IMG/VR virus record: IMGVR_UViG_3300028393_000035
Span: 1-64,000 of that record
Direction: 5' to 3' (one strand)
DNA: 64,000 nucleotides
Source of the DNA: a virus
A program made the translations under genes and the position numbers. Positions 12,650-56,689 of the stretch are shown here, one piece after another. A model generated the notes under the pieces. The model saw nothing but the letters and a program-made list of their open reading frames with translations, was not told where the DNA came from and did no database searches. How positions within the stretch are numbered: position 1 is the first letter of the stretch; every line of letters begins with the position of its first letter.

Positions 12650-13430
12650 TCAAGAGTATAATTTGGCTATCAAGCTTGCAAAAAGCAAGCAACCATTAGA
12701 TCAGTGTCCAACTTGTGATTCTAAAATGGAGGCTATTCCCGGCTCCGGTGGAGTCAGAGAACGAGTTAATGGAAAGTACCGTTACATGGGAGAAGAGTAT
12801 CCATGTGAATGTGATGCTCAAATTGCTCTTAGAGCTAGGTACTTAGTAGCAAACATTGGTGAACAGTACCAACGTTTGTCATGGGACGAATGGGACGGTT
12901 GCGAAGATACTAGGAATGTAGTTGATACATATCTTGGTAGCTGGGAAAAGTTTTTTAAGCAGGGAATTGGTATTGAGTTTTACAGCTCCGCACTTGGAAC
13001 GGGTAAAACTTTTGCATCTACTCACATTGGTAAAGAGTTGATTAAAAAGGGTCAATCTGTTTATTTTATTCCGTTTATTGAAATGGTTGCAGCGTTTGAT
13101 AGACAGGATTCTGATTACATTGCAGGCAAAATTAGAGAATCAGGATTTGTAATCCTTGACGAAGTAACACCTCCAAATTCAGAGGCACAAAGGGCGTTTT
13201 TCTCAGTTCAGCTAGAAGCCCTTATTCGTCATCGAACAAATAATAACCTTCCTACAATAATGACAACGAATATGAGTCAAGAGATGCTAAACTCATCTTA
13301 CCCGCGCATTTATTCGCTGTTGTCTGCAAAGCAGATTAGGCAGGAAGTGAAGGGAACCGATAGGCGAGAGTTTATCGGAGTACAGGAAATGGAAATTATT
13401 GCAAACGGAGAAACGAGACCTATCACATGA
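12600..13430 (+). CDS. DnaC/IstB-like helicase loader ATPase with zinc motif
   Basis: A 276-residue AAA+ protein. Residues ~36-71 carry a CPTC...CEC zinc motif (C36, C39, C69, C71), followed by an ATPase core with Walker A 'LGTGKT' (132-137), Walker B 'FVILDEV' and sensor 'TIMTTN'. This domain order matches DnaC-type loaders that place the replicative helicase on DNA. The helicase gene follows directly (4-base overlap), which supports the assignment. The start has a GAGGT site and lies within the preceding gene, a 50-base overlap. Some phage members serve as general DnaA/DnaC-like ATPases. Confidence 0.78.
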   Translation: MQITLRNKTYNLKNLTDQEYNLAIKLAKSKQPLDQCPTCDSKMEAIPGSGGVRERVNGKYRYMGEEYPCECDAQIALRARYLVANIGEQYQRLSWDEWDGCEDTRNVVDTYLGSWEKFFKQGIGIEFYSSALGTGKTFASTHIGKELIKKGQSVYFIPFIEMVAAFDRQDSDYIAGKIRESGFVILDEVTPPNSEAQRAFFSVQLEALIRHRTNNNLPTIMTTNMSQEMLNSSYPRIYSLLSAKQIRQEVKGTDRREFIGVQEMEIIANGETRPIT

Positions 13431-32281: not shown

Positions 32282-34176
32282 TAGACGATATTCCTTCCAA
32301 CCCTAAGGTTTTTAACAACAATTGGCCATGGGCTAGCCTCAGCAGGAGTCTTAGATGTATCAACAAGAAATCGTTCTTGATTTAAATAAACATCGGTATT
32401 TCTTGTAAATTTAATTTTTACAAATCTGCCAAAAACCATATCAAATGTAAAAGCTGAAATTCCCCACTTGTTTAAACTAGTTCCTTGATAATCTAACAAT
32501 GTATGATTTGGATACAGTGGATCAAACACAACTGGTTGATAAGTCCAGACGTTTTTAACTACTTTGACCTTGGTTATATTTGCTGTTTGAGACGGATTAG
32601 CAATATTTCCCTGTACAGTAAATGATGATGTAGTTGGGGTACCTCTAATGGTAAACGTTCCATTGTAACAAGTTGCCCCGCTAACTTCTGTAATAGTTAC
32701 AGAATCACCAACTTGCAAATTATGATCGCTTACAAATGTGTATGTGTAAGTTGTGCTTCCCGCTTCACTACCACAAGTGATTGAAGAAAGGTTAGGCAAA
32801 GATGTGTCTTGAATATCATCCGCATATGAAATTTCAATATCAATGGGAGCATTAAGTATTTCAAATATCAAAAAGTTTACACTTTGAGTACTGCCTAAAT
32901 CAATTATTAAATAATCATCGCCCGAAGTTTTTAATTCAGATATCCAAAGTTTATCACGTTGATAAGTAACTGTCGGAACATTATTAAGACTCAAATAATC
33001 AATTGGATATTCATGGTTAACAAAGCTTGTATTTGTATTTGCGTTTTGACGAGTGACAGAGATAGGTTCAGGATAATCCGCCAATGCTTTGTCCGCAGAC
33101 CACACAGCTCCGCTAGAAAGGTTTTTTAAAGCAGGAAACTTTGTAATTAATGCTGAATAATTATCTAAACTACCAACGGCGTATGACGAAGCAGTAACAA
33201 GATTTGGTTTATAAAATCCTTGATAGTGTTGCTGAAAATCATTATGATTTCTAGGAGCTTCTTTCTCAACATCTGCTTCAACCCAATAGATAGAATTAAA
33301 ATCATTGCCAGATTGAGTCGGCCAATTAATATTACTATTTCCTGTAACAAATTTAGTAACTTGATAAAATTCACTACTAGCGGAAACTGATTTGATATCT
33401 ATAGGGTGAGAATCTGCCTGTCCTAAACTAGTATTTAAAACAGTGTTCATTGGCTTAAGGTTTTCAACAGCATCCCGAAGTAAGCGCATAGTTTGCGCAT
33501 CAACTTCTTTAAGATTTTCAGCATTAGCAAAAACGCTAAGAACTTCATTAATGCTATCTGATTTTAAATTAGAGGGGGCAGGATCATTAGGAACGACTGT
33601 AAACTCTTCAGTGTTATAATATCCATTCCTATTTGCATTAATATTAAAATTATAATTTAATATTTGATCTGTATGCTGATTAAAAATGTGTTGATAATTT
33701 TCAATAATTCTTGTATTGTAACCAAGCGCTGATTTAGCGGCTAATCTCATTCCCTCAACTGTTGGTCCCAATCGTGCAGCATAAAAATAATCAATCGCTC
33801 TTTGTCTGTATGCTTCATCAAGAGATTTAATCAAAGCCCAAGAGTCAGCATCAAGAATGTTTTTTGAATTTTCTAAATACGATTCATCAAAATTTCTTGC
33901 AAATCGAAATGGGTTGCCGTACAATTTGTCAAGCTGATCAAAATTAAATCCATGTTCTTCTAATTGAAGTCGTGCATAAAAATAATTTAACTTTAAAAAG
34001 CTAACTCCAGCGGGACCAATTAAAGTATATAAAAATTTGTAAAGCCTAGAATCGGGCGAAGTATTAAAAACTTCTTCTGGAAAATTGTCTAGATAACTAA
34101 CAATGTTACCAGAGCTAGTTAATGCTTCAACTAAATACTGTTCATCTACTAGGGCATCATAAGTTGGTCTACTCAT
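32281..34176 (-). CDS. Baseplate/tail protein, gpI-like position
   Basis: A 631-residue protein coded directly after the J-like baseplate protein (4-base overlap), the place where tail protein I occurs in P2-like gene orders. The N-terminal ~170 residues are helical ('YLDNFPEEVFNTSPDSRLYKFLYTLIGPAG', 'DEAYRQRAIDYFYAARLGPTVEGMRLAAKSALGY'), as in gpI-type proteins. The rest is beta-rich with a discoidin-like strand pattern and a 'HNLQVGDSVTITEV' module (around residues 480-530). It probably connects wedge and fibre. Confidence 0.62.
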   Translation of the reverse strand: MSRPTYDALVDEQYLVEALTSSGNIVSYLDNFPEEVFNTSPDSRLYKFLYTLIGPAGVSFLKLNYFYARLQLEEHGFNFDQLDKLYGNPFRFARNFDESYLENSKNILDADSWALIKSLDEAYRQRAIDYFYAARLGPTVEGMRLAAKSALGYNTRIIENYQHIFNQHTDQILNYNFNINANRNGYYNTEEFTVVPNDPAPSNLKSDSINEVLSVFANAENLKEVDAQTMRLLRDAVENLKPMNTVLNTSLGQADSHPIDIKSVSASSEFYQVTKFVTGNSNINWPTQSGNDFNSIYWVEADVEKEAPRNHNDFQQHYQGFYKPNLVTASSYAVGSLDNYSALITKFPALKNLSSGAVWSADKALADYPEPISVTRQNANTNTSFVNHEYPIDYLSLNNVPTVTYQRDKLWISELKTSGDDYLIIDLGSTQSVNFLIFEILNAPIDIEISYADDIQDTSLPNLSSITCGSEAGSTTYTYTFVSDHNLQVGDSVTITEVSGATCYNGTFTIRGTPTTSSFTVQGNIANPSQTANITKVKVVKNVWTYQPVVFDPLYPNHTLLDYQGTSLNKWGISAFTFDMVFGRFVKIKFTRNTDVYLNQERFLVDTSKTPAEASPWPIVVKNLRVGRNIV

Positions 34177-37100
34177 AGTACGCTATTCCAAGTATTTTGA
34201 GACTTAACCCTAATAGTCATAACCGATGATATGTCAGTGACTCCGCCAGATAACACTCCTTCCGGAAGGGCTGCAAGTTCGTCATCACCAATTTGAAAAT
34301 CTTCATTATATGCGCCATAACCAGTATTAACATTTATTCCTACGACCGCTAATACGTCCTTATCGGTTTTACTATTATATGTAATTGTAATCGGATAATT
34401 AAATGATGGATCAACTTTAAAATCTACGGAACTTGAAGCAGTAATCAATGTATAATTACTATTCATTTTAGCCGTAAATCCAATTTTGTTTACGGTGTCA
34501 ACCTTCCAAGAGTTTGTATCGGTAGAAGGGTTGGCTCCAACATTGTTATCAACAAGAGATTGATAGTATGTAGATCCATACAATACAACATCGTTCATTG
34601 AATAACTGAAATTTGCATCGTATATTTGAATTCTAAAATCATCAAATTCAATTACTTCAGGTTCATTTTTACCGTACTGAACTTTAAAATTACTTACGAC
34701 ATAATTTTTGCTTATATTAGTTAAAGCTGTATTAATTGCTGGAGGAACTTCACCGGTTAAAGTTACAGATCCATCATCAATATATGAAAGTTCATCATAA
34801 ATTTCATCTAGTAAAAGACTTCCACTTGTCCATGAATTAGATGTATTGCGATAAATTTTATAACCAGTGGCTTCATTAACTCTATCCCAAGTTAATTTAA
34901 TTGACCTACTTGTTACCGATGGAGTCACAGTAACATAACTTGATGCAGTAGTTTGACCATTTGCATTAATTGCAGTAATTTTATAATAATAAGCCACATT
35001 TAGTAATGCGCCAGTGGAATATTCAACGGCAGTTAAATTACTTGGAGCAAGAAGACCGGTTGCGTCTTGTTTTGGCAAATATGGAAGGTAAAGATTATAC
35101 TGCGTTGCCGTGCGACCATCTCCAATGTTAATCAAATCAAGTACTGGTTTACTAATCGATTGACCGTATTTATTTGTTTCAGTTAACCTAACCCGTGAAC
35201 TTTCAGTGTTATCGTACTCGGTTTTATTTTGATCTAATACGTCTTTAGACCAACGCACATTGTCAACTCCGCCAACGTTATGAATAGTTTGAATAATGTC
35301 TGATAATTGAATTTCATTTCCAAAATAAACATTGTCAAAATACCTCATTAAAGCAAGTCGAATTGATTCATTGACCGATGCTTTGTTAGCGCCAGTTGAA
35401 TACATTACAGTAATATCGGGTTTAAAATATCTTACTTTGGCTTTATGAGCAAGAACGTCGGTAGTTACTTGTTTATTTGTTTCTAATAAAGATTGAAGCG
35501 CGATAATATTACTATCATATTGATAATTATTAACATCGATAGAGGGATCAATAGTTGATAACAATAATGCAATGGTAGAATTGGCGTTATGCGAATTTAC
35601 ATAACTGCCATTTGCACCCCTGAGTTTAATTTGAAGCAGTGAACTTGGTTTATTTGGAAGCAAGGAGTATTGAATTTGCTCTGAATCTATAAGCAAGTAA
35701 TCATTGTCAGGAAATTGCCTTGTTGTGGTTGACGCAACTTCCATCAAAACATTTACAATTGCACCAGAAGCAGTAATTGCAGCAGCCGTAGTTCCAAATT
35801 GCCCCCTATTGATGCCGGTAAATGTATTTGACGTTTTTGCACTGTAACTAATAATTTCACTGCCAATTAAAATATATCCTGAGGCTGGGAATGGATCAGT
35901 TGAAGTAACTTTGATTGCAGTTAAGTTAGTAGCTGCTATGGTAACCAAAGTCACTTTGCCCGTATTAGCATCTCCGGTCAAAGTTCCAGTTATACTGTAC
36001 TTGATTGTACTACCGGCGGTTCCGGTAGTACAAACTGCTGAAGTTAAATTAAGTGCTGTACTTCCTGTAATTCCACTAATTTTAATTGTGTCGCCAACAT
36101 TTAAATTATGAGCGGCTGAAGTTGTCAATGTGGCAGTGCCGTCCGTTGCTGACGAAGTTGATACTGATATTTGATTACCGGAATCAGAAGCATTGGTAGT
36201 TGTTGATACGGCAGAAGAATTTGGCAACGCGGTTGCTAACGTAGCCATTGATAAAGAACTAGTGTTAATGTATGGACCTGTATATGGACCGCCGGTAACA
36301 TCTCCTGAACCCTGCGACGGAATAGTTGTAGACCATTCAATGCCGTTCCTCGCCCTTATTGTTCCATTTAAATCTGTTACCTCTTCTACTAACCAATAAT
36401 GTTCATCTTTATTAAAAGTTCCATTACTTAAACTAATTTGATCTGGCAAATCGATAACTGGTTGATGATATAAAGGAGTTAATACATTTCCTTTAACGGG
36501 TCGCCTACCCGGCTCACCCATTCGTCTATAATTATCAATATAAAACGCGCTAGTCGTATCATCAGTAAATTGAAATGTTGGAACAGAACTTCCGGGACGA
36601 GGAATTGTTACATTGCCGGTCGTTGCATCCTCTCCATTAACGTAAACATCAACGCAATTTAAAATGTTTCGATCATAGTCATTGCGAGATGCTGTAGACA
36701 TATAAGAATGTTCAAATAAAAGAACGTCGCCCGGAGCGATTGCGTTACTTGGACGGGTGCTAATATTGCCTATATAAACATTGGTAAATGTTATATTGGG
36801 TTGATACAATACTGGGGACTCAGTTGAGGTAGGATCAACCGTCCCAATATTGCGAGCGGCGTCACCCTTGTTTTTATCTTGAGGTAAGATGTTTAAAAGA
36901 TAATCATAACCGGAAGTATAATAAATTGGCGACAAACCTGAATCATTAGCAACAAAATATGGTAAATTATCATAAATATGTTTCGAATTATTATTATTTG
37001 ATAAATTAGTTGTAAATTGATGAATTTTATCAGATGGACCATTGCCTCCCGACGTTGTATCAGAAACGCTGGGAACTTGAATGTATTCGCTATATTTAGA

Positions 37101-37775
37101 AATTGGACCGACGACATTTGCTTTCTTTGATTTAGTCGAAAGCGCAAGTGATAAAAATTGATCTTTGGTACCAGCGAGGTTTCTAAAAGGACCGGCGGTA
37201 GTAAACCTTGCTTTAAGTTCAGTGTCTGACTCGCTATCTGTTCCACCGGTAATTGGGTATTCGTTATTTACCGCAGTAATGCCATAAACGGGCGCTCCAA
37301 CTGTTTCAGTAATAGTATTTGCAGCCACATTACCAATGATGCCGCCTTGAATAGCTTCAATAGGGGCAATAACTTCAGTAGTTCCGGCCTGCAATGTTAC
37401 AGTTGTGGTAGTTCTAAATACTACGCTTGTATTTCCATCACCACCATTAGGGGTAAAGACTGTGGTGCCAGATCGAATAATAACTGGATTTGTTGTAGCG
37501 GTTTCTCTTGAAAATGTTACGTAACCCGTTGCGCGATTACCAGCTTGACGACCAAATCCAAGAATGGCCAGCATATTGTCAAGATCAGTTCCAAATTTTG
37601 CATCAATATCAAATGCCCCATTTAACACATTAAGATCGACTTGAGCATCTGCTATTGCTTGCGCAACAGTATCAATAATCCTACGCTCTGGGGTTCCCAC
37701 TTCCGCAGAAATAGAAGGATCAAGCGCCCTTAATTGGGTAATCATACTTTGTGAAATTTGATCTTGTGTAGCCAT
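34173..37775 (-). CDS. Baseplate J-like (gp6/gp47 family) protein with added beta domains
   Basis: A 1200-residue baseplate wedge protein. The N-terminal 250 residues match the baseplate-J pattern: 'VAQAIADAQVDLNVLNGAFDIDAKFGTDLDNMLAILGFGR', 'RSGTTVFTP', 'GGIIGNVAANTITE', 'GGTDSESDTELKARF'. The middle carries a 'HNLNVGDTIKISGITG' module (~residue 558) and two 'FPxxxYxLIxSExIxY' modules (~637 and ~695). A later J-like segment ('TVMYSTGANKASVNESIRLALMRYFDNVYFGNEI') is followed by a fibronectin type III domain ('APSNLTAVEYSTG...ATGYKIYRN'). It is much longer than typical J proteins (~300-400), because of these insertions. It follows gp25 in the usual order. Confidence 0.85.
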   Translation of the reverse strand: MATQDQISQSMITQLRALDPSISAEVGTPERRIIDTVAQAIADAQVDLNVLNGAFDIDAKFGTDLDNMLAILGFGRQAGNRATGYVTFSRETATTNPVIIRSGTTVFTPNGGDGNTSVVFRTTTTVTLQAGTTEVIAPIEAIQGGIIGNVAANTITETVGAPVYGITAVNNEYPITGGTDSESDTELKARFTTAGPFRNLAGTKDQFLSLALSTKSKKANVVGPISKYSEYIQVPSVSDTTSGGNGPSDKIHQFTTNLSNNNNSKHIYDNLPYFVANDSGLSPIYYTSGYDYLLNILPQDKNKGDAARNIGTVDPTSTESPVLYQPNITFTNVYIGNISTRPSNAIAPGDVLLFEHSYMSTASRNDYDRNILNCVDVYVNGEDATTGNVTIPRPGSSVPTFQFTDDTTSAFYIDNYRRMGEPGRRPVKGNVLTPLYHQPVIDLPDQISLSNGTFNKDEHYWLVEEVTDLNGTIRARNGIEWSTTIPSQGSGDVTGGPYTGPYINTSSLSMATLATALPNSSAVSTTTNASDSGNQISVSTSSATDGTATLTTSAAHNLNVGDTIKISGITGSTALNLTSAVCTTGTAGSTIKYSITGTLTGDANTGKVTLVTIAATNLTAIKVTSTDPFPASGYILIGSEIISYSAKTSNTFTGINRGQFGTTAAAITASGAIVNVLMEVASTTTRQFPDNDYLLIDSEQIQYSLLPNKPSSLLQIKLRGANGSYVNSHNANSTIALLLSTIDPSIDVNNYQYDSNIIALQSLLETNKQVTTDVLAHKAKVRYFKPDITVMYSTGANKASVNESIRLALMRYFDNVYFGNEIQLSDIIQTIHNVGGVDNVRWSKDVLDQNKTEYDNTESSRVRLTETNKYGQSISKPVLDLINIGDGRTATQYNLYLPYLPKQDATGLLAPSNLTAVEYSTGALLNVAYYYKITAINANGQTTASSYVTVTPSVTSRSIKLTWDRVNEATGYKIYRNTSNSWTSGSLLLDEIYDELSYIDDGSVTLTGEVPPAINTALTNISKNYVVSNFKVQYGKNEPEVIEFDDFRIQIYDANFSYSMNDVVLYGSTYYQSLVDNNVGANPSTDTNSWKVDTVNKIGFTAKMNSNYTLITASSSVDFKVDPSFNYPITITYNSKTDKDVLAVVGINVNTGYGAYNEDFQIGDDELAALPEGVLSGGVTDISSVMTIRVKSQNTWNSVL

Positions 37776-37776
37776 A

Positions 37777-38226
37777 TTATAAAGATACTGATAGTTTTAT
37801 TGGATAAGCTTCGGGGTTTGCTTTTGCAGTTATGAAATTAATTTCAACATTAGCAGCGGTTAAATTTTGCTCTAATTTAGTAATTTGAAAATCTATTACT
37901 ACTTCTCTGGCAGTTAAAGTTGCCTTACCAAATGACATTTTATCTACTTTGGCTCTTGATAATTGACGAGCTTTATAACGATTGACAACTGCTGCTATTT
38001 CTGTTTCAATTTGTAAATGTAAATCGTTAAGAGAATTTGGCGTAGTTCCTATAATTTTATTTTCTAAACTACTGCCGTAATTTTCATTGAATCGATTAGA
38101 TCCTCTTTTTTCAAGTAATTCGCATTTAATATCTTGCATTAATTTTTGTTCATTGGCAACTTTGGCAAGGCCTTTGCTGCCAAGGGCTAAATCACCGTCT
38201 TCTGTTAATCCTATGCTCCAAGTCAT
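37777..38226 (-). CDS. Baseplate wedge protein, gp25/gpW family
   Basis: A 149-residue protein with the gp25 features: an N-terminal 'GLTEDGDLALGSKGLAKVANEQKLMQDIKCELLEKRGSN'-like region (split in sense: 'DLALGSKGLAKV', 'KLMQDIKCELLEKRGSN'), 'FNENYGSSLENKIIG' and a C-terminal beta sheet. gp25 proteins initiate sheath assembly on the baseplate. It abuts the J-like gene downstream, the classic W-J order, and follows the spike-like gene. Confidence 0.85.
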   Translation of the reverse strand: MTWSIGLTEDGDLALGSKGLAKVANEQKLMQDIKCELLEKRGSNRFNENYGSSLENKIIGTTPNSLNDLHLQIETEIAAVVNRYKARQLSRAKVDKMSFGKATLTAREVVIDFQITKLEQNLTAANVEINFITAKANPEAYPIKLSVSL

Positions 38227-38253: not shown

Positions 38254-38757
38254 TTAACCTACAGCGCTCCAACCAATATTTGATTCGCCAGATGTTTTTG
38301 CATACAAGGTGCTTCCTGCCGCACCATCTTTTCTAAGAAATAAACTACCAATCGGTGCTGTAGTAACGCCCTCAGGACCTCCGGTTCCTATAACAATCTT
38401 AATCGACCCAACTTCAATTACATTAGTTTTATCTATTGTTACCAAAGATGATCCGCTAGGAGTCTTAATAACTTCAGCCGCAACCTTGGCTTCTCCGGGA
38501 GCTAAATGCACAACTTGAGTGTCATCAACATTATCAAATTTAGTATCAAGTTTCCAATACCCTCCATCTTGACGGACGATCCAATATTCACCTTCTTTGG
38601 GCCAAACAAAAAATGATGGAACGTCAAATAATGAAATTTGAATATTACCTCCGTCTTTTAATTGAGCTTCAATTTTGCGGGTATCCGTATGCACTGTATG
38701 AATTCGCGCAGAATGCCTAGGACCAAACGCAGGATTAATATGATTGCGAATTGACAT
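38254..38757 (-). CDS. Baseplate spike/OB-fold protein (gpV-like candidate)
   Basis: A 167-residue beta-rich protein between the hub gene and gp25. The N-terminal half ('RIHTVHTDTRKIEAQLKDGGNIQISLFDVPSFFVWPKEGEY', read as several strands) suggests an OB-fold as in spike proteins. The C-terminal ~50 residues ('GSLFLRKDGAAGSTLYAKTSG') resemble short beta-helical or fibre-like ends. Position fits a central spike or tail-needle hub component. No His-x-His iron-binding tip is visible. Confidence 0.55.
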   Translation of the reverse strand: MSIRNHINPAFGPRHSARIHTVHTDTRKIEAQLKDGGNIQISLFDVPSFFVWPKEGEYWIVRQDGGYWKLDTKFDNVDDTQVVHLAPGEAKVAAEVIKTPSGSSLVTIDKTNVIEVGSIKIVIGTGGPEGVTTAPIGSLFLRKDGAAGSTLYAKTSGESNIGWSAVG

Positions 38758-38760
38758 TAT

Positions 38761-40263
38761 TTATTTCTTATCCGATTTAGATGGATCTTTATCCGTTGCA
38801 TCTTTAAATGTACCAACGGCATCTGTAGTAGGCCAAGCTCTAATCATTCCTGCATGAACCCAAGATTTATCTGGATCTGCTGGAGTCCCGTCTCCATTTT
38901 TATATGCCGCAGGAGCCATTAACTCCGCTGTAGTGGTGAAACCATTTTCATACGAGCAGTTATGAGTCACAGAACTGACATAGCACTGCAATCCATGTTC
39001 GGGAAACGCTACGATACCGCCGGGAAAAAGCTCGGGCATAAATGTAAATTGAAATTGAGTTTTAAATTGTTGAGACCAATATAAACAAAATTTTTGATAT
39101 GCTAAAAATGCTTCATAAATTGGTGCCCTAACCATAGGGGCTGGCTCATAATGCGGTCTTGCTCCGTATTTGCGCAAAAAGTTAATTGCATCTTCTTGTT
39201 TAACAAGCGTCGGATATTTTTTAGGATCTACGCCTTTAAGATCACCTTTTGCATCTACGCCATTAAGAAAGTCGGCCATAAAAGCATTGAATACACTAAC
39301 CACTCCGCCTGTATTTATTTTATCATAAACATCTACGTTGCCACTACCACTGGCCGCACCAGATGGAGGTCCAACAATATCTCCAACTACATAAACGTGA
39401 GTATATAATTCATCATCTGATAATTCGATGCTGCCACTAATAATTTCAATATCTTCAATAAACCAATAAGGAGTTTTTCCTAAACCGCCAAAGTAATCTG
39501 GGTAAAAAGCAAAAAAGTCTCCACTCGGAGTGGACATGAACTGCCTTAGACAAGCCATGGACAATTGCTGAATAAAAGGCATTAGAGGAGTATCATTCAT
39601 TAAACTTCTTTGACCAGTTAATGAATTTGATTCTATTGTGCTAACGAATCCGGGCATAGAAAAAAATGTTGAATAAGCAGCAGCTTTAGCAATTGCCCCA
39701 ACGTCAATGGTTTCTCCGCTTGGTTGAGTACCGGGTAAAATTGTTTGATCCGTTGGAGTACCAGTAGGATCACTAGCAATTGGATTACCGTTTTCGTCTG
39801 CATTGCCAAGTGAAAAATCTACAAATTTTCTTGGGGAAACGGCTCCGTTTGTTGTAGGTTCACCGCCTAGTGCAAACTCAGGTTTCATAACTACGCGAAC
39901 CCGATTACTTTGAGTAACCCATCCTTCGGAAACGCCTTTATTAACCGGTTTCCATTGTCCGTCACCAAGATTTACACTTGACGAAATGGGACCCAAAGCA
40001 ATACTGTCGTTTTCTTTAAAAATACCAATGGTTTCTTTAAATTGAAGGATCAGTGTTCTTTCATTGGCGTTATTCATGCCCCAAGTCCATCGAGATTTAA
40101 CTGGGGCGCTGATGGTAATGGTACCATTGCTAATACCATAAATTTGACTTTTCATTAATCCATGGGCTGCGCTTTGATTTCCATACTCAGTAATTGTATG
40201 TAAACCAGATGAAGTTGCATTTGGAAATATTGGTGCTGGTTTTTTAGCTTGTGATCCGGGCAT
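38761..40263 (-). CDS. Baseplate hub-like protein
   Basis: A 500-residue protein downstream of the three wall-enzyme hub proteins and upstream of the spike candidate. The N-terminus contains beta segments ('GISNGTITISAPVKSRWTWGMNN', 'RTLILQFKETIGIF'), and the middle is helical ('IQQLSMACLRQFMSTPSGDFFAFYPDYFGG'). The phrase 'FFAFYPDYFG' followed by strands is typical of late-control D/gp27-type hub proteins, in which beta barrels frame the tail tube exit. No enzymatic motif. Probably part of the central hub together with the paralogues at 40318-44600. Confidence 0.6.
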   Translation of the reverse strand: MPGSQAKKPAPIFPNATSSGLHTITEYGNQSAAHGLMKSQIYGISNGTITISAPVKSRWTWGMNNANERTLILQFKETIGIFKENDSIALGPISSSVNLGDGQWKPVNKGVSEGWVTQSNRVRVVMKPEFALGGEPTTNGAVSPRKFVDFSLGNADENGNPIASDPTGTPTDQTILPGTQPSGETIDVGAIAKAAAYSTFFSMPGFVSTIESNSLTGQRSLMNDTPLMPFIQQLSMACLRQFMSTPSGDFFAFYPDYFGGLGKTPYWFIEDIEIISGSIELSDDELYTHVYVVGDIVGPPSGAASGSGNVDVYDKINTGGVVSVFNAFMADFLNGVDAKGDLKGVDPKKYPTLVKQEDAINFLRKYGARPHYEPAPMVRAPIYEAFLAYQKFCLYWSQQFKTQFQFTFMPELFPGGIVAFPEHGLQCYVSSVTHNCSYENGFTTTAELMAPAAYKNGDGTPADPDKSWVHAGMIRAWPTTDAVGTFKDATDKDPSKSDKK

Positions 40264-40317: not shown

Positions 40318-41457
40318 TTAATCAACTAATCTAATTTCCACATTACCCGTACCGTCTTGGGTAAAGTTTAAAGCATCCGCAGCGTCTCTCCATAAATCAA
40401 TAGCTCTATTGGGACTGCCGCTTCCGTATCCTCTATCGGTTTTTGATGCAATAATAGATTTTCCTTTGTATCTAATTTCGACTTTTGTAAACATTGGCAA
40501 TTCGCCAGATCGACCAAAAAGAGCAGCCATGTAACCTTGATTGGTAGCCAAACCATTACTTGTTGCAGTACCCAACTCTGCATAATTATAAAGCCCACCG
40601 GGAGCATTACCCAATTTTCCTGACGCTCCGGGAGGTGGATCATCAAACCAAGAGGCCTCTGTTGTCTTCCATCCTGACCCCCCAGTTGAAGGTTGAGCGG
40701 CACCTCCGCCTCCTCCACTTGTTGTAGTTGAAGTTGAAAATTTACCATAATCACCACGACCAATAATTTCTCTGACAAATTTGGCAACTTCTTCGTTAAT
40801 GTTTGAGTTATCTTTTTTGAATTCATCAAAAAGGTTTCCAACAACTTTTTCTATGTTACGAGGAAGTGATTGAATGTAAATATTATCATTGTTCCAACCG
40901 CCAATTTCATTAAGAACTCCATAAAGAAGATTACCAATACTGGAATCATTTAATCTATTAACTTTATTAATTTTTTGATTATCAGTATCTGCCGTACCAG
41001 CTTTACCATTAGACTTATCTAAGTTCCAACCGTAAGCTTTCATAAAATCGTTTACAAAAGAAAGTCCCGGATCAAAGTAAGTGTAATTTAATCGCTTTAA
41101 TGTACAAGAAGCTTTAATTTTGGCGGTCCCCGGAAACAATTGAACATCGGGAGTTGTGTCGCAATAACCTGTAAATACCTGAATGGGCTTGCCCGCAATT
41201 CTTTCAAGGATAATTGTTATCGGATCCATTGGATGAAAAACGGGAAGAACTTTGCCATCAGCTTCGCGTTCTGTAAACAAGAACCTAGGTTTATTGTCTT
41301 TAAGTACTTTTGGATTGCGAAATTCTAATTCAGCCGTACTGATGTTATCAATGACTCTGTAAACGTCACATTTGATTATGTACGGACTTAAATCGACTAT
41401 GCCAGAGTCAGTTTTGATCCAAGCTTTGATTGATGGAGAGTAAACTAATCTTTTCAT
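40318..41457 (-). CDS. Hub paralogue A: docking domain + RlpA/expansin-like double-psi beta-barrel
   Basis: A 379-residue protein. Residues 1-243 are the shared docking domain ('MKRLVYSPSIKAWIKTDSG', 'VFHPMDPITIILERIAGKPI', 'LKRLNYTYFDPG', 'LLYGVLNEIGGWNNDNIYI'). A Gly/Ser linker leads to a ~117-residue double-psi beta-barrel: 'ASWFDDPP', 'NYAELGTATSNGLATNQGYMAALFG', 'SKTDRGYGSGSPNRAIDLWRDAADAL'. The aspartate of 'TDRG' (D341) of RlpA-type lytic transglycosylases is kept, but the 'AAH' histidine is not seen, so activity is uncertain. It is the last of three tandem paralogues and likely sits at the tail tip to open the cell wall. Confidence 0.75.
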   Translation of the reverse strand: MKRLVYSPSIKAWIKTDSGIVDLSPYIIKCDVYRVIDNISTAELEFRNPKVLKDNKPRFLFTEREADGKVLPVFHPMDPITIILERIAGKPIQVFTGYCDTTPDVQLFPGTAKIKASCTLKRLNYTYFDPGLSFVNDFMKAYGWNLDKSNGKAGTADTDNQKINKVNRLNDSSIGNLLYGVLNEIGGWNNDNIYIQSLPRNIEKVVGNLFDEFKKDNSNINEEVAKFVREIIGRGDYGKFSTSTTTSGGGGGAAQPSTGGSGWKTTEASWFDDPPPGASGKLGNAPGGLYNYAELGTATSNGLATNQGYMAALFGRSGELPMFTKVEIRYKGKSIIASKTDRGYGSGSPNRAIDLWRDAADALNFTQDGTGNVEIRLVD

Positions 41458-42735
41458 TTAAAAACCTTGAATGTGTCTAGGTGTAAATCCTTCTGTTGTA
41501 TGTGCATGCCACCATACAGTGTGCCCAGCGGGTGCGCTACTAGCAGTTCCAACAAATCTATTAGCAGCATCCGAATTGGCTAATTCAAAAAATACATGGC
41601 CACTGGGTCCAGCAGGCCCCTTTGTCCAAACAGTAAGATACTGTCCTCTACCCGGCTCTCCCCAAGTTAAAAATTCATCAGAGCTTGGAGCGTAATTAAA
41701 ACCTAATTTACCAATAAAATGAAGCATATAAGATACAAAGCTAGAGCAGTCAAACATTAAAGCACCGTCGCCGTCTACAGGAGGATTATTAAGATAATTG
41801 CCCTCTCTTTCACTACTAGCTCCTCCCGGTATATCGCCATCTCCACCAGAAACGTATCTTGTTTTGGCAGAAACAATTCTGTCAACTTCAGCTTTCCAAC
41901 GTCTAATTAGATCTGGAGCCTGCGACGGTAAGACTGGAGTAGGACCTGCGGCAGTACTAGAATCTGCAAGTGGTTGAGTAGACAATTGTCCGTATCCACC
42001 ACTACCAATAATACCCTTGACAAATTTGGCAACTTCCTCGTTGACTTTAGAATTGTCTTTTTTAAATTCATCAAAAAGATTTCCAACGACTTTGGCTATG
42101 TTGCCGGGGATCGGTTGAATATAAATATTATTGTTATTCCATCCGCCAATTTCATTAAGCGCAGCATAAAGTAAATTGCCAATACTGGAATCATGTAATT
42201 GAACTGATGAAGTTGGCACTTGTTTTGGATTTTCATCTTTTGTTGCTTGTTTTTCATTAACCGCAGTACCATTAGATACATTAATTATCCAACCATAATT
42301 GCGCATAAAATCTTGTACAAAATTTAATCCCGGATCAAAGTAGGTGTAGTTTAATCTTTTTAAAGTGCAAGACGCTTTGATACGAGCGGTACCCGGAAAT
42401 AACTGTACATATGGAGTTGTGTCACAATAGCCAGTAAAAACCTGAATGGGTTTACCCGCAATACGTTCAAGTACAATAGTTATTGGATCCATAGGATGAA
42501 AAACCGGTCTTATTGAAGTGCTACCATCTGAACCCGTATATTCGTTTTCAGTAAACAAAAATCTTGGTTTACCATTTTTAAGCACTTTTGGATTACGAAA
42601 TTGAATTTCAGCATTGCTAAGGTCATCAACTTTTCTTACAACCGTGCATTCGGTTACATATGGACTCAAATCAATAACCCCCGAGTCTGTTTTTACCCAA
42701 ACCTTGATTGACGGGGAGTAAGCTAATCTTTTCAT
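41458..42735 (-). CDS. Hub paralogue B: docking domain + NlpC/P60 (C40) peptidase
   Basis: A 425-residue protein. Residues 1-254 are the shared docking domain. After a Pro/Ala linker and a short helix ('APDLIRRWKAEVDRIVSA') comes an NlpC/P60-like domain with catalytic Cys330 in 'ALMFDCSSFVSYML', the 'EFLTWGEPGRGQYLTVW' segment and His380 in 'SGHVFFEL'. Such enzymes cut peptide bonds in peptidoglycan stems. The same subfamily pattern occurs in the two plus-strand genes at 56039-57347. The start overlaps the stop of paralogue C by one base. Confidence 0.8.
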   Translation of the reverse strand: MKRLAYSPSIKVWVKTDSGVIDLSPYVTECTVVRKVDDLSNAEIQFRNPKVLKNGKPRFLFTENEYTGSDGSTSIRPVFHPMDPITIVLERIAGKPIQVFTGYCDTTPYVQLFPGTARIKASCTLKRLNYTYFDPGLNFVQDFMRNYGWIINVSNGTAVNEKQATKDENPKQVPTSSVQLHDSSIGNLLYAALNEIGGWNNNNIYIQPIPGNIAKVVGNLFDEFKKDNSKVNEEVAKFVKGIIGSGGYGQLSTQPLADSSTAAGPTPVLPSQAPDLIRRWKAEVDRIVSAKTRYVSGGDGDIPGGASSEREGNYLNNPPVDGDGALMFDCSSFVSYMLHFIGKLGFNYAPSSDEFLTWGEPGRGQYLTVWTKGPAGPSGHVFFELANSDAANRFVGTASSAPAGHTVWWHAHTTEGFTPRHIQGF

Positions 42736-44600
42736 TACTGCCCGCCTTGAATCGCTTTTGCTTTATTTATAATTTTATTTATCGGCAGGTTTCCCGGACA
42801 GTCTGGATGATCTCCGCCTCTTGATCCTAATTCGCCGTGTCCACAAATTCCATTTGTTGTAGACCTAACAAGCGGAATGTTAAATTTAGTAGACCAATAG
42901 GCAACCCATTGAGCAGATTTATTAATTTGCGCATCTGTAAATGCAGATACACTTTGACTTGCATATCCTATATGCTCAATTCCTAATGAATCTTTTGATC
43001 TATACCCGCAATGATGAGCTTGATTTTGATCATTAACAAAGCGAGCAGAGTTACCTTCATTATCAACTCCAACATGAACGGAAATTCCTCGATTTGGTAT
43101 GCCGTGCGCAGTCGCCCAATCACTTCTTCTCATTAATCCATCTTTCAAGTTTCGCAAATCTGCCGTTCCAGCAATATTATCAGTTTGAGTAACATGCAAA
43201 ACAATAATTTTTGGATTATTATTTGATTCCCAATAATTTAAACCGTCTCCATTTTGAGGAATTGGAAGACTTATATGCTCAGGCTCTGAACCCGGATTAG
43301 AAGCTGTTGCAACAGGTCTTAATGTGTTAACAACATCTGCAATAGTTTTTGCAAATACTAACTTGCCATGAGTAGTTGGATGAGGCTGATTATTTGGATC
43401 AATTTCTGCTTTTGAAGCCCAATCAGCAATTGACAAATTAGAATGTTTTGAATGTGCTTCTCTAATTGCTTCATTAACATGATTATTAGTTGTTACAGTA
43501 ACAAAAACTGCTTTTCGATTAGATCCAATATTAGCCATCGCTTTATCAATAGATCTTAAAAAGGTAGCTTTAGAATTATCTTCATCGTTTGTACCAAGTG
43601 CAACAATAACTATTCCGCCAAGAGATAATTTATTATTTTTTAAGATTTTTAATCCAGAATCTCCGCCCATAGTCGAAGATCCATAACCATCTGGACCCCA
43701 TGCCATATGTTTTGAATTTTCTGCATAAATAGTAATTCCCGGCATTGCAGCTTCAAGTTCGGTTCTACTCATGTTAGTAATACTGTCTCCAACCATGGTT
43801 ACTCCTGTTCCAGTAACGCCGTTAGAATCAGTGCTATTGCTAAGTAATTTACCGTAATCTCCATTGCCAATAATTTCTCTAACGAATTTGGCAATTTCTT
43901 CGTTAACGTTTTTATTATCTTTGGCAAATTCATCAAAAAGTTTTCCTACTATTTGAGATATGTTATTAGGAAGTGATTGAATATAAATATTGTCATTGTT
44001 CCAACCACCAATTTCGTTTAATACGGCATAAAGTAAATACCCAATGCTAGAATCATTTACATTGGTTGATTTAACAGCTTTACTGATTTGAGAATCTGTG
44101 ATGACACTGGCAGTACCGCTATTTCCTGCCCCGCCTTTTTTAACAACTCCATTTCCTCCTAATTGCCAACCATATTGACTCATAAAATCCATAACAAAAG
44201 GAAGTCCCGGATCAAAATATGTATAGTTTAATCGTTTAAGTGTGCAAGAAGCAGTTAACCGCGCAGTACCCGGAAATAGTTGAACATATGGAACGGTATC
44301 GCAGTAACCAGTAAAAACCTGAATGGGTTTACCTGCTATGCGTTCAAAGATGACTGTTATTGGATCCATTGGATGGAAAACTGGCCCAATGTTTCCATCT
44401 TTTTGAACTCTTTGAGTAAACAAAAATCTTGGTTTTCCATCTTGTAAAACTTTGGGATTGCGAAATACAACGTCTAAAGAACTAAGATCGTTTACTTTAC
44501 GCTGAACCCTGCACTCTGTAATGTGAGGACTTAAATCAACAACACCAAAGTCTGTTTTTACCCAAATCTTTACTGATGGGCTATACACTAGTCTTTTCAC
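42735..44600 (-). CDS. Hub paralogue C: docking domain + SGNH esterase + Amidase_2
   Basis: A 621-residue protein. Residues 1-254 are the shared docking domain. Residues ~264-430 are an SGNH/GDSL hydrolase: 'VTMVGDSITN' (S273), 'IVIVALGTNDED' (N338) and 'NNQPHPTTHGK' (H407). Residues ~440-612 are an N-acetylmuramoyl-L-alanine amidase: 'IIVLHVTQT' (H469), 'QAHHCGYRS', 'GICGHGELG' (H588) and 'DHPDCPG' (D600/C601), the zinc ligand pattern of Amidase_2. It can in principle remove ester (for example O-acetyl) groups and cleave the glycan-peptide link. It is the first and largest of the three paralogues. Confidence 0.82.
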   Translation of the reverse strand: MKRLVYSPSVKIWVKTDFGVVDLSPHITECRVQRKVNDLSSLDVVFRNPKVLQDGKPRFLFTQRVQKDGNIGPVFHPMDPITVIFERIAGKPIQVFTGYCDTVPYVQLFPGTARLTASCTLKRLNYTYFDPGLPFVMDFMSQYGWQLGGNGVVKKGGAGNSGTASVITDSQISKAVKSTNVNDSSIGYLLYAVLNEIGGWNNDNIYIQSLPNNISQIVGKLFDEFAKDNKNVNEEIAKFVREIIGNGDYGKLLSNSTDSNGVTGTGVTMVGDSITNMSRTELEAAMPGITIYAENSKHMAWGPDGYGSSTMGGDSGLKILKNNKLSLGGIVIVALGTNDEDNSKATFLRSIDKAMANIGSNRKAVFVTVTTNNHVNEAIREAHSKHSNLSIADWASKAEIDPNNQPHPTTHGKLVFAKTIADVVNTLRPVATASNPGSEPEHISLPIPQNGDGLNYWESNNNPKIIVLHVTQTDNIAGTADLRNLKDGLMRRSDWATAHGIPNRGISVHVGVDNEGNSARFVNDQNQAHHCGYRSKDSLGIEHIGYASQSVSAFTDAQINKSAQWVAYWSTKFNIPLVRSTTNGICGHGELGSRGGDHPDCPGNLPINKIINKAKAIQGGQ

Positions 44601-44605
44601 GATAA

Positions 44606-45520
44606 TTAATTTCCGTTTGCGTCTGTTAAATCAAATTGACTATTAATTCCAATTTGTACACCATTTCCACGATGGTTGATTTGTGCGCCCGTAAAAGCTG
44701 TATCTGATATGCCACCGTTTGCGCTAATGTGCTTACCATTACTGATGGCATCGTTATATTGACCCTGAAGAATATTTTTTCTAATTTGAGCGCCATTTTT
44801 TGCTCCAAAGTCATCCTTGCGAAAAAGAGTCATCCAGTCCGTAATTTTAGATCCTGAACTTAAATCATTACCAAAAATGCCTTTATTTCCATCGGATTGG
44901 GCAATAACAAAATCAATGGTAAATTGAGGAGCAAAATTAAATTTAGTTCCGCCAGCAGCAATAGACTTAATGTAACCCTCTAATTGCATACCCTTTCTTG
45001 CACCCTTTTGATTTCTGGGTCGTCCCTCTACAGACCGTGGATTCATAATTAATGTTACGGTAGGAAGGGGAATTGTTGAATCGTCGCCATAATGTTTTAA
45101 ATAAAGATTTGATTTTTCACTGGCATTTGATTGAGGTCGTATATCACCATTCACATTTAAAGCTTCTGAATGAGATTCTCTAACAAAAGCGGCTAATTTG
45201 TTATACTCTCTTTGATTTGGCATTATTCCAGCCATTTTTAAAATAGGTTGATCAAATGAATGAGGGTAAAATTCTCTTTTCCAACGACTTTGACCAGTGC
45301 TACCAGTCATAGAAAAATCAATTGAAGCTTCTTCTACCCAAAGGTTCAAGTATTTATTATTTGTTTTAATAAGTCGAACGGTCCAATTATCTAATTTATT
45401 AGGATCGACATCGGGCGTACTAACTGCATATCCTGTGTCAACTCTAGGACCAGCTTGCCTATTTAATTTAGCTGCATTCTCAGCAGAATAAGGAATGGGA
45501 TCAATTGGATTATTAGCCAT
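44606..45520 (-). CDS. Tail protein between tape measure and hub
   Basis: A 304-residue protein. A longer frame (to 45832) overlaps the upstream gene and reads as Leu-rich nonsense. ATG 45520 has a GAGGAC site 13 bases upstream. The sequence contains 'NWTVRLIKTNNKYLNLWVEEASIDFSMTGSTGQSRWKREFYPHSF' (read as beta strands), 'IPLPTVTLIMNPRS' and a polar C-terminus. It overlaps the previous gene by 8 bases. It probably forms a tail-tube/baseplate adaptor (LysM-like gp53 or distal-tube role possible); not recognisable more precisely. Confidence 0.55.
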   Translation of the reverse strand: MANNPIDPIPYSAENAAKLNRQAGPRVDTGYAVSTPDVDPNKLDNWTVRLIKTNNKYLNLWVEEASIDFSMTGSTGQSRWKREFYPHSFDQPILKMAGIMPNQREYNKLAAFVRESHSEALNVNGDIRPQSNASEKSNLYLKHYGDDSTIPLPTVTLIMNPRSVEGRPRNQKGARKGMQLEGYIKSIAAGGTKFNFAPQFTIDFVIAQSDGNKGIFGNDLSSGSKITDWMTLFRKDDFGAKNGAQIRKNILQGQYNDAISNGKHISANGGISDTAFTGAQINHRGNGVQIGINSQFDLTDANGN

Positions 45521-46292
45521 TATTTTTATTGTCCTCAGATGGAGCTTTTCCATCACCGTTTTTACCGTTTCCAGTATTTTGAAACGCAGCGTTATATGCA
45601 GGTTTAGACCAATTGGCTCCCAATGCCTCCGTTGCTGCTGCACCGCTTGAACCGGGAAGCCAAGATTTAATAAACGAGTTATATGGGCCATTTGCACCAC
45701 TAAGCTCGCTATAATAATCTTGAGTTGCGCCAGCCTTATAAGCCTTGCCCGTGTTAGGAGTTGTCCAAGGGTTAAATTGATGAAATCCGATACGAGCCGT
45801 AGCGGTTCCAAAAGGTTTAAAACTAGGATCATCGACTTGAGCTTGAGCTTCTGTTTTAATTAACTGCTCAAAACTTTCTGGACTTTCAACAACTGCCGCG
45901 CTAATACTCCAAGTAGGAGCAACGACATCTTTACCATACCTAAATCCGGGCGCTGATTTAGGTTGAATAAGAAATTTCCAACCGCGAGCTGGATATTCAA
46001 AAGTAACAGGTGTGGTATCATAAGCCTGTGTTTTACCCTGAGTGGCAAGCTGCATGTAGGAAACAAACCATTGATAAATTGTTTCCATTTTACTGTATGA
46101 TGAAATGGTTCCTGTGATGGTCATGTCCTCAATAAACATTGAAAGAATTTGAACAACTTCGCCGCCAAAAGTTTGATAATTTTGAGTATTTAATCCATAA
46201 GACCAAACAATAGAATCAGGGTTGACTGATAATTTTAAATCAGGCAAAGCTTGAGTTGGATGAGAAAATATAATTTTTGCAGTATTAGCCAT
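45513..46292 (-). CDS. Tail/baseplate structural protein
   Basis: A 259-residue protein downstream of the tape measure. The N-terminal 'IIFSHPTQALPDLKLSVNPDSIVWSYGLNTQ' and 'TFGGEVVQILSMFIEDMTITGTISSYSKM' read as beta strands and resemble distal tail/baseplate initiator proteins. The C-terminal 80 residues are Gly/Asn/Ser-rich and probably flexible. The start could also be the GTG at 46301, which makes a GTGA overlap with the tape measure stop. Function by position only. Confidence 0.55.
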   Translation of the reverse strand: MANTAKIIFSHPTQALPDLKLSVNPDSIVWSYGLNTQNYQTFGGEVVQILSMFIEDMTITGTISSYSKMETIYQWFVSYMQLATQGKTQAYDTTPVTFEYPARGWKFLIQPKSAPGFRYGKDVVAPTWSISAAVVESPESFEQLIKTEAQAQVDDPSFKPFGTATARIGFHQFNPWTTPNTGKAYKAGATQDYYSELSGANGPYNSFIKSWLPGSSGAAATEALGANWSKPAYNAAFQNTGNGKNGDGKAPSEDNKNNG

Positions 46293-46297
46293 TATTA

Positions 46298-48172
46298 TCA
46301 CGTATTATTTTTTCCGCCGCCGTCTTTTCCTTGAGCGTCCTTAAGTCCCCTAGCAGCTTGCGCAGCAGTGTCTAATGAATTAACCAATTTATCAAAATTG
46401 TCTCTAGATATGTCTTGTTTATTATCTGGTCCGCGAGCTTTGTCTAAATCTCTTAATAATTTCTTTTCCCAATCAGCATTTAATATCCAATCGTGTCCTC
46501 CGCGTCTGCGATCTTTAGCAACTCCGGAGGTTACCAAATCCCTTTTAATTTCCTCCATTTGCTTAGGATCTTTGATTCCTGCACTCTTAAGAATTTTATT
46601 AATTTCGCTCTCGTTGGCCTGCTTTCCAGACACTGCGGGTAAATCATACCAACTTCCAGAATGAGTTTTAATACCTTTAACATTTGCAATTATTTCGCCG
46701 TTTTTATTTTTATTAAAATATTTTGATTCTGCTTTATCAATTGCAGATCTTTGCGGCGCATAATCAATAACATTTTTTATTTCTTCGGGCGAATAACCTT
46801 GAAAACCATAAAGATTAATCATATCACTAATTGCTAATTCTCCGGGTTTAGAATTTAAAAATTTGGAATTAACCTGTCCAATGGATTTACCAGTTAAATT
46901 TTGAAAAACAGATCCCATGGCGGATGTTAAAGCCCGTTGTTGTTCCGAAGGGGACATAGCGCCAGCTTGATAAGGCATGTAACCCATTTTCATAACTTGC
47001 TGTTGCGCCATGGGGTTATTCATTAGCGTTTGCAAATTTTTTGTAGGATCTATTCCCGGCATTGTGCGAGCCAATTCCGCTCCTTGAGGAATTGAATAAG
47101 CGGACGATACGCCTGATTGCCCTGCAAGTTGAGCATATGCTCCAAGTTGCTGTGTTAATTGTTCAGTCGAAACATTTGCACCTGCTGCTACTGCGTTAAG
47201 ATTATTAATAGTGCGAGTCAAATGAGCCACTTCATTTACGTTTCCAAATCGCAAAGTTTGATCTAATAGCGCACCCGCCTGCTGAGGTCTAATTGAAGGA
47301 TTAAAACGAGTAATGTTTTCTAATGCCATTTCACCTGTTTTAAATTGATTATTATTAAAATTAAATCCCATTCCCATTAAAGTGTTATCTATTTCTGCCA
47401 TTTGCTGCATATTAACGCCAGATCGAACAGCCTGACCCATTTGATGAAACTTCATATCCAACCCTTTTTCAAAAGCGCTATTAAAAGGATTTCTAAAACC
47501 AAACCCTCCAATTTCAATATTGCCGCCTACTTCACCACCAATTTGAGTTGCCCCATAATTTGATAAACCCTGCATGGCGCGATAAGTAGGTTGAACGTAT
47601 TGCTGAAACATCTTTTTGCCAGCTTCGTAATTAGGAATGACCTCATTGGCAAAAAAGTTTGCTCTGCGGCCAGATCGTATATATGCTTTTTGCTCATCAC
47701 TATCTGGCTCAGCCCTAGCCGCCTTTTCTAAATTTCTAAGCATTGCTGCTTTAGCTAAGTTTTGAGCAGTAATTCCGCCTTTTAATGGACCAAAGCTAGG
47801 AGGAATAGTATAATATTGTTGACCAAAAACGTCTTCAAAGGGTTTATCGCCGCGCAAACCGGCTCCAACTCTACCCAAAAGGCTTTTAGCATCTGAAGCA
47901 TGCTTGGATGGTCCATCACCAGCGCTTACCGGAGCATCTGGTGCTGTTGCCTCTTCCCACCTTTTCCAACTAATATCTTCTGCTTGCTTAGCTCTTTTTT
48001 CATATCCAAAGGTACTGGCACGACTACTAGTTAAATCATCAAACCTTTTTCTTTCACTGCTCTCAGTAAACCGTGCAATTAGGTTATCTAACTCAGGGCC
48101 GCCCAAAGCCTGTTTAAGTCCCCTTTCAACGGCGGCTGCAATTTCATCAATATTTGGATTATCTTCGGGCAT
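46298..48172 (-). CDS. Putative tape measure protein
   Basis: A 624-residue protein that lies between the tail assembly chaperone-like genes and the distal tail genes, where the tape measure is expected. It is predominantly helical with Gln/Ala/Met-rich segments ('AMLRNLEKAARAEPDSDEQ', 'MAEIDNTLMGMGFNFNNNQF', 'TEQLTQQLGAYAQLAGQSG'). It would set a rather short tail. There is no peptidase domain, which fits with the wall enzymes being on the hub instead. Charged, Gly/Lys-rich C-terminus. The start has an AGAAGA site. Confidence 0.6.
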   Translation of the reverse strand: MPEDNPNIDEIAAAVERGLKQALGGPELDNLIARFTESSERKRFDDLTSSRASTFGYEKRAKQAEDISWKRWEEATAPDAPVSAGDGPSKHASDAKSLLGRVGAGLRGDKPFEDVFGQQYYTIPPSFGPLKGGITAQNLAKAAMLRNLEKAARAEPDSDEQKAYIRSGRRANFFANEVIPNYEAGKKMFQQYVQPTYRAMQGLSNYGATQIGGEVGGNIEIGGFGFRNPFNSAFEKGLDMKFHQMGQAVRSGVNMQQMAEIDNTLMGMGFNFNNNQFKTGEMALENITRFNPSIRPQQAGALLDQTLRFGNVNEVAHLTRTINNLNAVAAGANVSTEQLTQQLGAYAQLAGQSGVSSAYSIPQGAELARTMPGIDPTKNLQTLMNNPMAQQQVMKMGYMPYQAGAMSPSEQQRALTSAMGSVFQNLTGKSIGQVNSKFLNSKPGELAISDMINLYGFQGYSPEEIKNVIDYAPQRSAIDKAESKYFNKNKNGEIIANVKGIKTHSGSWYDLPAVSGKQANESEINKILKSAGIKDPKQMEEIKRDLVTSGVAKDRRRGGHDWILNADWEKKLLRDLDKARGPDNKQDISRDNFDKLVNSLDTAAQAARGLKDAQGKDGGGKNNT

Positions 48173-55925: not shown

Positions 55926-56038
55926 TAATCCAACGAAAGGAGTTGTTTCCACTGGTCTCACTCAGCCCGTTAAGTTGTTAAGTAAGAGGGCTTGCGAAGT
56001 CAATGTAGGACAAATGAGTGTGTTCCAAGGATGTATTT

Positions 56039-56689
56039 ATGCTTAATCATAAAACACTAATATTATTCGCGCTAGTTGCGGCGATAGCACTTGCTATGAT
56101 TTGCCCATCAAATGCGAAAGCGGATCTTCCGCAAGCAAATAAAGAAGTTGTTCAATTGTTTGACAATGGTGGGGTTATTCCAGAGCAAAAACCCCCCGCC
56201 CCAATTGAAAAATGGACCGGCAAAGTAAGAATTGCTGGAATAATAAAGAAGATCAATACCGATAGCCCTTCTAAGCCTGTTGTAGAGGGTTCTAAGGCAA
56301 TTGTATATAAAGGAGAGGCCTATGCTCCAAAAGACGCACCTAAAATTGTAAAAGGCGTTATTTGGGCTGGCAACAAAATTCGTAATTTGCCCTATGTTTG
56401 GGGCGGAGGTCACGGATCATTTAGCGCATCTGGGTATGACTGCTCTGGATCAGTATCATATGCCCTTCATGGAGCTAAATTACTAGATACAACAATGACA
56501 TCCGGTGACCTAGCATCATGGGGTAGATCGGGTCCGGGTAAATGGATTACTATTTACGCCAATTCGGGTCATGTATACATGCATGTAGCCGGTATTAGGT
56601 TTGATACATCAGGAGCCAATCCTTCAAGGTGGCAGTCTGATTTAAGACCTAGTTCTGAATATTTGCTTAGACATCCAAGTAATTTATAA
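56039..56689 (+). CDS. Secreted NlpC/P60-like peptidase
   Basis: A 216-residue protein. The ATG at 56039 has an AAGGA site; an upstream GTG (56018) is in frame but lacks support. Residues 1-28 are a Sec signal peptide ('LILFALVAAIALAMICPSNAKA', cleavage probably after AKA). A spacer region is followed by a C40 peptidase domain: 'LPYVWGGGHGSFSASGYDCSGSVSYAL' (Cys135) and 'ITIYANSGHVYMHVAG' (His178). It is expressed from its own promoter against the structural operon and followed by a terminator. It may modify the host wall from outside the membrane, before lysis or to exclude other phages. Confidence 0.8.
   Translation: MLNHKTLILFALVAAIALAMICPSNAKADLPQANKEVVQLFDNGGVIPEQKPPAPIEKWTGKVRIAGIIKKINTDSPSKPVVEGSKAIVYKGEAYAPKDAPKIVKGVIWAGNKIRNLPYVWGGGHGSFSASGYDCSGSVSYALHGAKLLDTTMTSGDLASWGRSGPGKWITIYANSGHVYMHVAGIRFDTSGANPSRWQSDLRPSSEYLLRHPSNL

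Follow-up and report, generated by a model that had tools for sequence, protein, structure and literature searches.

The analysed window, 64,000 nucleotides from IMG/VR virus record IMGVR_UViG_3300028393_000035 (positions 1 to 64,000), carries a tail hub whose two halves are encoded by separate genes. The gene for the N-terminal half (N-half) is present in three adjacent copies, and each copy bears its own cell wall enzyme domain or domains. The split halves are homologous to the two parts of a fused protein found in related phages, and the attached enzymes are swapped between relatives. A hub built of three C-terminal halves (C-halves) and three N-halves, with the N types filling the N slots and several wall hydrolases carried at each tip, is the reading we consider probable.

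Three N-Halves with Different Enzyme Domains

Three adjacent open reading frames on the minus strand, which abut or overlap one another, encode P0001 (40318-41457, 379 aa), P0002 (41458-42735, 425 aa) and P0003 (42735-44600, 621 aa, with GTG as the start codon). They share an N-terminal domain of 245 to 257 residues, in agreement with a first sequence-only reading, which had described three consecutive genes with a common domain of ∼245 residues. The three domains are 70 to 72% identical in a codon alignment of 240 codons, and a search of the phage's own genome record with P0002 recovers the other two at 70% and 65% identity (E values of 2e-118 and 8e-112). The same reading had listed four identical stretches; FHPMDPIT, LKRLNYTYFDPG and GGWNN are common to all three proteins, but LERIAGKPIQVFTGYCDT is exact in two of the three domains, P0003 having F in place of the leading L with the remainder identical. 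All three match the N-terminal region of the family PHROG 2810 (positions ∼47-266) at 1e-29 or better. Copy 1 (43830..44600, P0003 residues 1-257) aligns with positions 48-266 (E value, 1e-35), copy 2 (41968..42735, P0002 residues 1-256) with positions 47-259 (5.5e-30) and copy 3 (40723..41457, P0001 residues 1-245) with positions 47-244 (1.5e-33). The N-half of P0003 matches the N profile at 1.3e-132.

The C-terminal domains, all likewise on the minus strand, are mutually unrelated. P0003 contains an SGNH/GDSL hydrolase-like domain (43251..43817, approximately residues 262-450) with GDSI, GTND and HPTTHG motifs, followed by an Amidase_2 domain (42738..43238, approximately residues 455-621) that matches PF01510 at 1e-15, above the Pfam cutoff. 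P0002 ends in an NlpC/P60-like peptidase domain (41461..41913, approximately residues 275-425) with DCSSFV and GHVFFE motifs and with relatives in the loci L014, L015, L034, L020, L019 and L022. P0001 ends in a double-psi beta-barrel (DPBB) domain of the RlpA-like lytic transglycosylase type (40321..40665, approximately residues 265-379; DRGY and RAIDL motifs), for which the match to DPBB_1 is weak (1.3e-5, under the Pfam cutoff). Pfam gives no match for the NlpC/P60-like domain of P0002 or the SGNH domain of P0003. The related L014 domain, 37% identical to that of P0002, matches NlpC/P60 at 0.008, and the related L015 domain, 55% identical to the SGNH domain of P0003, matches Lipase_GDSL_2 at 1.6e-4, both below the Pfam cutoff. 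The two putative assignments in the window are based on these relatives and on the intact motifs (DCSSFV..GHVF; GDSI..GTND..HPTTHG). Pfam, relatives and motifs together uphold the earlier description of unrelated DPBB, NlpC/P60 and SGNH plus Amidase_2 domains.

Two further genes of the window encode wall-directed candidates. A 223-aa NlpC/P60-like protein with a hydrophobic N terminus (56018-56689, plus strand, opposite to the array) shares 35% identity over 81 aa with the NlpC-like domain of P0002 and is possibly an endolysin or a source of hub enzymes. An endolysin-like protein with VanY, PG_binding_1 and GH25 regions is encoded at 2787-4136 on the minus strand.

The C-Half and the Fold of the Hub

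PHROG 2810, a family of 952 positions annotated as "virion structural protein," holds the N-half and then the C-half in this order. Its C-terminal region is present in P0004 (500 aa; gene 38761-40263, minus strand), where residues 185-475 (38839..39711) align with positions 651-920 at 2.5e-55. In the window and nine other contigs, the two regions lie on separate polypeptides rather than on one. Judged by this homology, P0004 is the second half of the hub protein whose first half is formed by the N-domains. The sequence-only reading had taken 38761-40263 for a separate, complete hub to which the N-domains dock; since the I3, Pupper and Phrappuccino phages carry both regions in one gene, as do most relatives, P0004 is better described as a C-half than as a separate dock, which corrects the annotation of a "500-aa hub" gene to half of a hub. 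The N-terminal extension of P0004 (39754..40263, minus strand, approximately residues 1-170) aligns with M23 peptidase domains placed equivalently in L036, L035 and L019, and a motif check found no HxxxD or HxH metal-binding motif in it. The presence of another complete hub outside this region was considered and rejected: in the 97-kb record, which is possibly incomplete, the P0004 region matches one place and no second C-half was found.

Structure models support a hub role for both halves. The AlphaFold2 model of the N-half (P0002) has a mean pLDDT of 75, with residues 11-120 at about 88 to 96, and that of P0004 has a mean pLDDT of 73. Modeled alone, as the sequence-only reading had proposed, the N-half matches hubs of contractile systems in a Foldseek search of the PDB (best E value, 3.5e-4; probability, 1.00). 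Its matches include 7b5h, 7aef, the E217 hub, the MuSo2 tail protein, VgrG and the pyocin hub; hubs and spikes from contractile systems rank highest, and some tube initiators and tail tube proteins also occur. The C-half matches the Milano hub (6.1e-6; probability, 1.00), Mu gp44 (1.0e-4), T4 gp27 (0.016) and also VgrG. Both halves are therefore predicted to have the gp27/gpD/VgrG-type tube-barrel hub fold, with TM-scores of the models to known hubs that are modest (about 0.2 to 0.4). Together with PHROG 2810, these matches bear out the earlier assignment of the common domain to the tail hub. The order of the halves is set by the fused relatives; hhalign comparisons with Mu gp44 and P2 gpD are collinear with the two-barrel order and nonsignificant. 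A PDB sequence search with the N and C profiles gave no significant match, and a profile comparison of the N-half with the C-half revealed no internal homology.

The hub genes are followed on the minus strand by probable baseplate genes. A short form of a probable OB-fold spike (gp5/gpV-like; 38254..38757) is assigned from its position after the hub and a weak match (2.9e-4) to phrog_2952, a minor tail protein family. The next genes encode a gp25-like sheath initiator or baseplate protein (37777..38226; phrog_2669, 2.1e-13) and a baseplate J/gp6-like wedge protein (34173..37775; PF04865, 9.7e-18). The probable spike has 167 aa in the window versus 574 aa in L002 (12050-13774) and 647 aa in L003 (12077-14020), two close relatives in which the extra length is a long fiber-like C-terminal part; the probable spike of L022 (11805-12683) contains a long collagen-like GPSGP repeat. 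On the other side of the array, the listed minus-strand frame 44606-45832 begins too early: relatives place its start at 45520 (MANNPIDP), where it overlaps the end of the upstream gene (45513-46301). In the relatives inspected, both split and fused, counterparts of the two genes lie directly upstream of the hub. The window also contains a class II (B12-dependent) ribonucleotide reductase-like gene (8865-10544) and six tRNA genes between 2630 and 8787, all on the minus strand.

Fused and Split Hubs in Related Phages

The sequence-only reading had proposed a search for the docking domain in other phage genomes, and such relatives exist in both forms. Profiles of both halves were applied to every locus that three viral_contigs scans and one genome scan had yielded. 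The fused form, with N-half, enzymes and C-half in one polypeptide, occurs in about 36 distinct IMG/VR contigs (e.g., L021-L033), and the split form occurs in 10, all metagenomic. Seven split contigs have three N-halves and one C-half (the window/L013, L014, L015, L034, L020, L035 and L036); L019 combines two N-halves with three C-halves, L040 has a single copy of each half, and L022 has a single copy of each in addition to one fused copy. Searches of the 10 split records over their whole length reproduce these counts, and separate copies of either half never exceed three. Three further viral_contigs scans yielded no additional split contig. In each of 211 matching cultured phage records, the N-half and the C-half match one place each, apart from one extra place in the first search, which used the whole of P0002; no N-half array was seen among them, and N-half, enzymes and C-half are apparently fused in all 211 (Bixzunavirus I3 and others). 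The hosts of the cultured relatives are Actinobacteria. Bacterial genomes contributed one fused relative, in one metagenome-assembled genome contig. A sequencing frameshift or other artifact as the cause of the split is rejected, as the architecture recurs in many independent contigs with their own start codons.

Exchange of the Attached Enzymes

The enzymes that the sequence-only reading had called interchangeable do differ among the N-halves of relatives and have been swapped between related phages. The SGNH plus Amidase_2, NlpC-like and DPBB set of the window compares with Amidase_2 plus SLT, NlpC-like and a third domain 55% identical to an L035 domain in L014; SGNH plus VanY, NlpC-like and a third domain without a Pfam match in L015; NlpC-like, SLT and SLT-like domains in L034; Amidase_2, a domain without a Pfam match and a DPBB-like domain in L036; and M23, an L014-like domain and SLT_3 in L035. 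In L019, an NlpC-like domain is attached to a C-half. The C-halves frequently carry an M23-type domain at the N terminus, with metal-binding motifs intact in L036 and in two L019 copies (the latter by alignment inspection) and missing from those of the window, L014, L015 and L040. The three C-half genes of L019 lie in a row (10143-14649) with M23, M23 and NlpC-like domains, a mirror image of the array in the window.

The first N-half of L020 has 246 aa and no enzyme at all, and its sister in the tree is the SLT-bearing N-half of L034. Because the next gene begins 10 bases downstream, the absence of an enzyme is a clean loss, and the retention of the bare domain suggests that the N-half is needed in itself.

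Age and Descent of the Copies

The fourfold-degenerate sites of the paralogues are only 35 to 61% identical. The copies are therefore old, with selection accounting for their conservation at the protein level, and a recent origin of the identical stretches by duplication or gene conversion is rejected on the same grounds. In the trees of both halves, L019, L040 and the arrays of three N-halves cluster, and L022 falls outside, beside its own fused copy. From this position of L022, at least two hub splits are likely. The N paralogues cluster by phage lineage and not by gene position, as expected if all of them face the same C-half. Strict orthology by position is rejected for L035/L036 (AU test, P values of 4e-6 or lower for all three copies). 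For the window and L015 it is borderline and not clearly rejected (P values of 0.05, 0.01 and 0.08), with slightly better agreement in position-specific residues (19, compared to at most 16 for other pairings). The window and L014 are orthologous copy by copy in the tree. Either a set of three N-halves was reached more than once or an older homogenization took place, the fourfold sites being too diverged to discriminate between the two.

Proposed Assembly of the Split Hub

In the T4 trimer, the homologous domains 1 and 3 of gp27 together make up a pseudo-sixfold torus (PMC3004832), and a ring of three N-halves and three C-halves is proposed on this basis. The hub protein of a contractile-tailed phage would have been split between its two tube-like halves, after which the N-half gene was presumably triplicated and each copy gained its own enzyme or enzymes. 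We infer that both halves co-assemble in one ring with a 3+3 stoichiometry: three copies of P0004 and three N-halves would rebuild the pseudo-sixfold ring for which relatives use three copies of one fused protein, and the three N types would occupy the three N slots, likely as a mixture. One tip could then present at the cell wall, during injection, the amidase and SGNH esterase-like domain of P0003 together with the NlpC/P60-like peptidase of P0002 and the DPBB lytic transglycosylase of P0001. Co-assembly is favored by the limit of three copies of either half, the age and conservation of the paralogues, the abutting or overlapping genes and the enzyme-free N-half of L020.

How the N slots are filled allows several arrangements. 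An obligate heterohexamer N1-C-N2-C-N3-C, which we advance tentatively, would break the threefold symmetry of the tip and give each virion one of each enzyme set; gene fission would here have allowed one half of the former homotrimer to diverge into three specialized subunits. The sequence itself imposes no such composition, since a single C-half gene makes all N slots alike, and if three N types were strictly required, the two N-halves and three C-halves of L019 would not be expected.

A comparably tentative place belongs to a statistical mixture, in which every N-half type has the same affinity for the C-half and the slots are occupied randomly, the enzyme set varying per virion. The three identical sites offered by a single C-half gene fit such filling, as do gene junctions close enough to give similar output and the lineage-specific residues shared by paralogues (LNYTYFDPG in all three N-halves of the window, LLYTYWDPG in all three of L015), which are expected if the same surface is bound. 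The ceiling of three N types is then unexplained, however, as two, four or five would be equally workable, and the retained enzyme-free N-half of L020 would merely dilute the enzymes. The likelihoods given to the mixture and to the 3+3 split hub as a whole overlap, because both share the split hub and differ just in the filling of the N slots. Taken together, the data lean to mixed rings without proving a fixed 1:1:1 composition.

It is improbable that the N-halves lie outside the ring, as collars, accessory rings or loose ejected lysins, with P0004 alone as the hub. P0004 by itself does give significant hub matches, and single tube-like domains are known from tube initiators and tail tube proteins, some of which are among the Foldseek matches of the N-half; yet its best structural matches are hub and spike proteins, and both halves form one polypeptide in most relatives. 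The sequence-only reading had offered a heterotrimer or alternative homotrimers, a choice that left out random mixtures, and the second option, in which each N-half and P0004 make a separate ring and virions fall into three classes by enzyme, is the least likely arrangement despite the failure of Serratia VgrG1 and VgrG2 to form heterotrimers under native conditions (PMC4924876), given that N and C barrels alternate in a gp27-type ring, where N-halves barely touch and sorting would be hard, and that an enzyme-free homotrimer in L020 would arm nothing.

Comparison with Known Hubs and Spikes

The closest known proteins are Bixzunavirus I3 gp141, Gordonia phage Pupper gp123 and Mycobacterium phage Phrappuccino gp82, which contain the same N-half and C-half. 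The I3-type neighborhood shares sheath, tape measure, hub, gp25-like and wedge genes with the window; its hub (PHROG 2810) differs in being one fused gene with the enzymes between the halves. T4 gp27-gp5, Mu gp44 and P2 gpD are trimeric hubs with two tube-like domains in a pseudo-sixfold ring (for T4, PMC3004832), but both domains come from one gene in a homotrimer, and the T4 lysozyme is located on gp5.

Multienzyme hubs are already known. Gp15 of cyanophage A-1(L) adds lysozyme, endoglucanase and peptidase to the barrel domain of the hub, with all enzymes on the single polypeptide of a homotrimer (PMC10966104). Bacillus phage 0305phi8-36 gp147 is homologous to gp27 but larger, and its peptidoglycan-cutting domains are exchangeable; it is encoded by a single gene with an unsplit hub part and, in the portions of that report consulted, no described hub-part paralogues (PMC2147016). 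Such phages string their enzymes on one chain because the solved phage hubs cited here are homotrimers. No hub split into half-genes, with one half triplicated and diversified in its enzymes, came up in the papers searched on hubs and tail lysins, a weak absence given the thin coverage of subscription journals. If the proposal is true, three N-half types are an alternative solution that places different enzymes on equivalent sites. The fused, split and triplicated forms and the mirror case with three C-halves would make up a natural series from homotrimer to hetero-oligomer.

The split hub parallels the VgrG spikes of the type VI secretion systems (T6SS) of Vibrio cholerae and Aeromonas, with three paralogous spike proteins whose effector domains are different or lacking (PMC8668125). 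The V. cholerae VgrGs are reportedly required together as a heterotrimer, VgrG2 being without an extension (as cited in PMC8668125), whereas the Aeromonas study concludes that several effectors are needed rather than a heterotrimer as such (PMC8668125). With the unmixed VgrG1 and VgrG2 of Serratia (PMC4924876), the T6SS provides precedent both ways. Every VgrG protein comprises a complete gp27+gp5 fusion and belongs to a bacterial secretion system, not to a virion; in contrast, the proteins of the array hold the N-half only, with the C-half and the probable spike encoded by separate genes.
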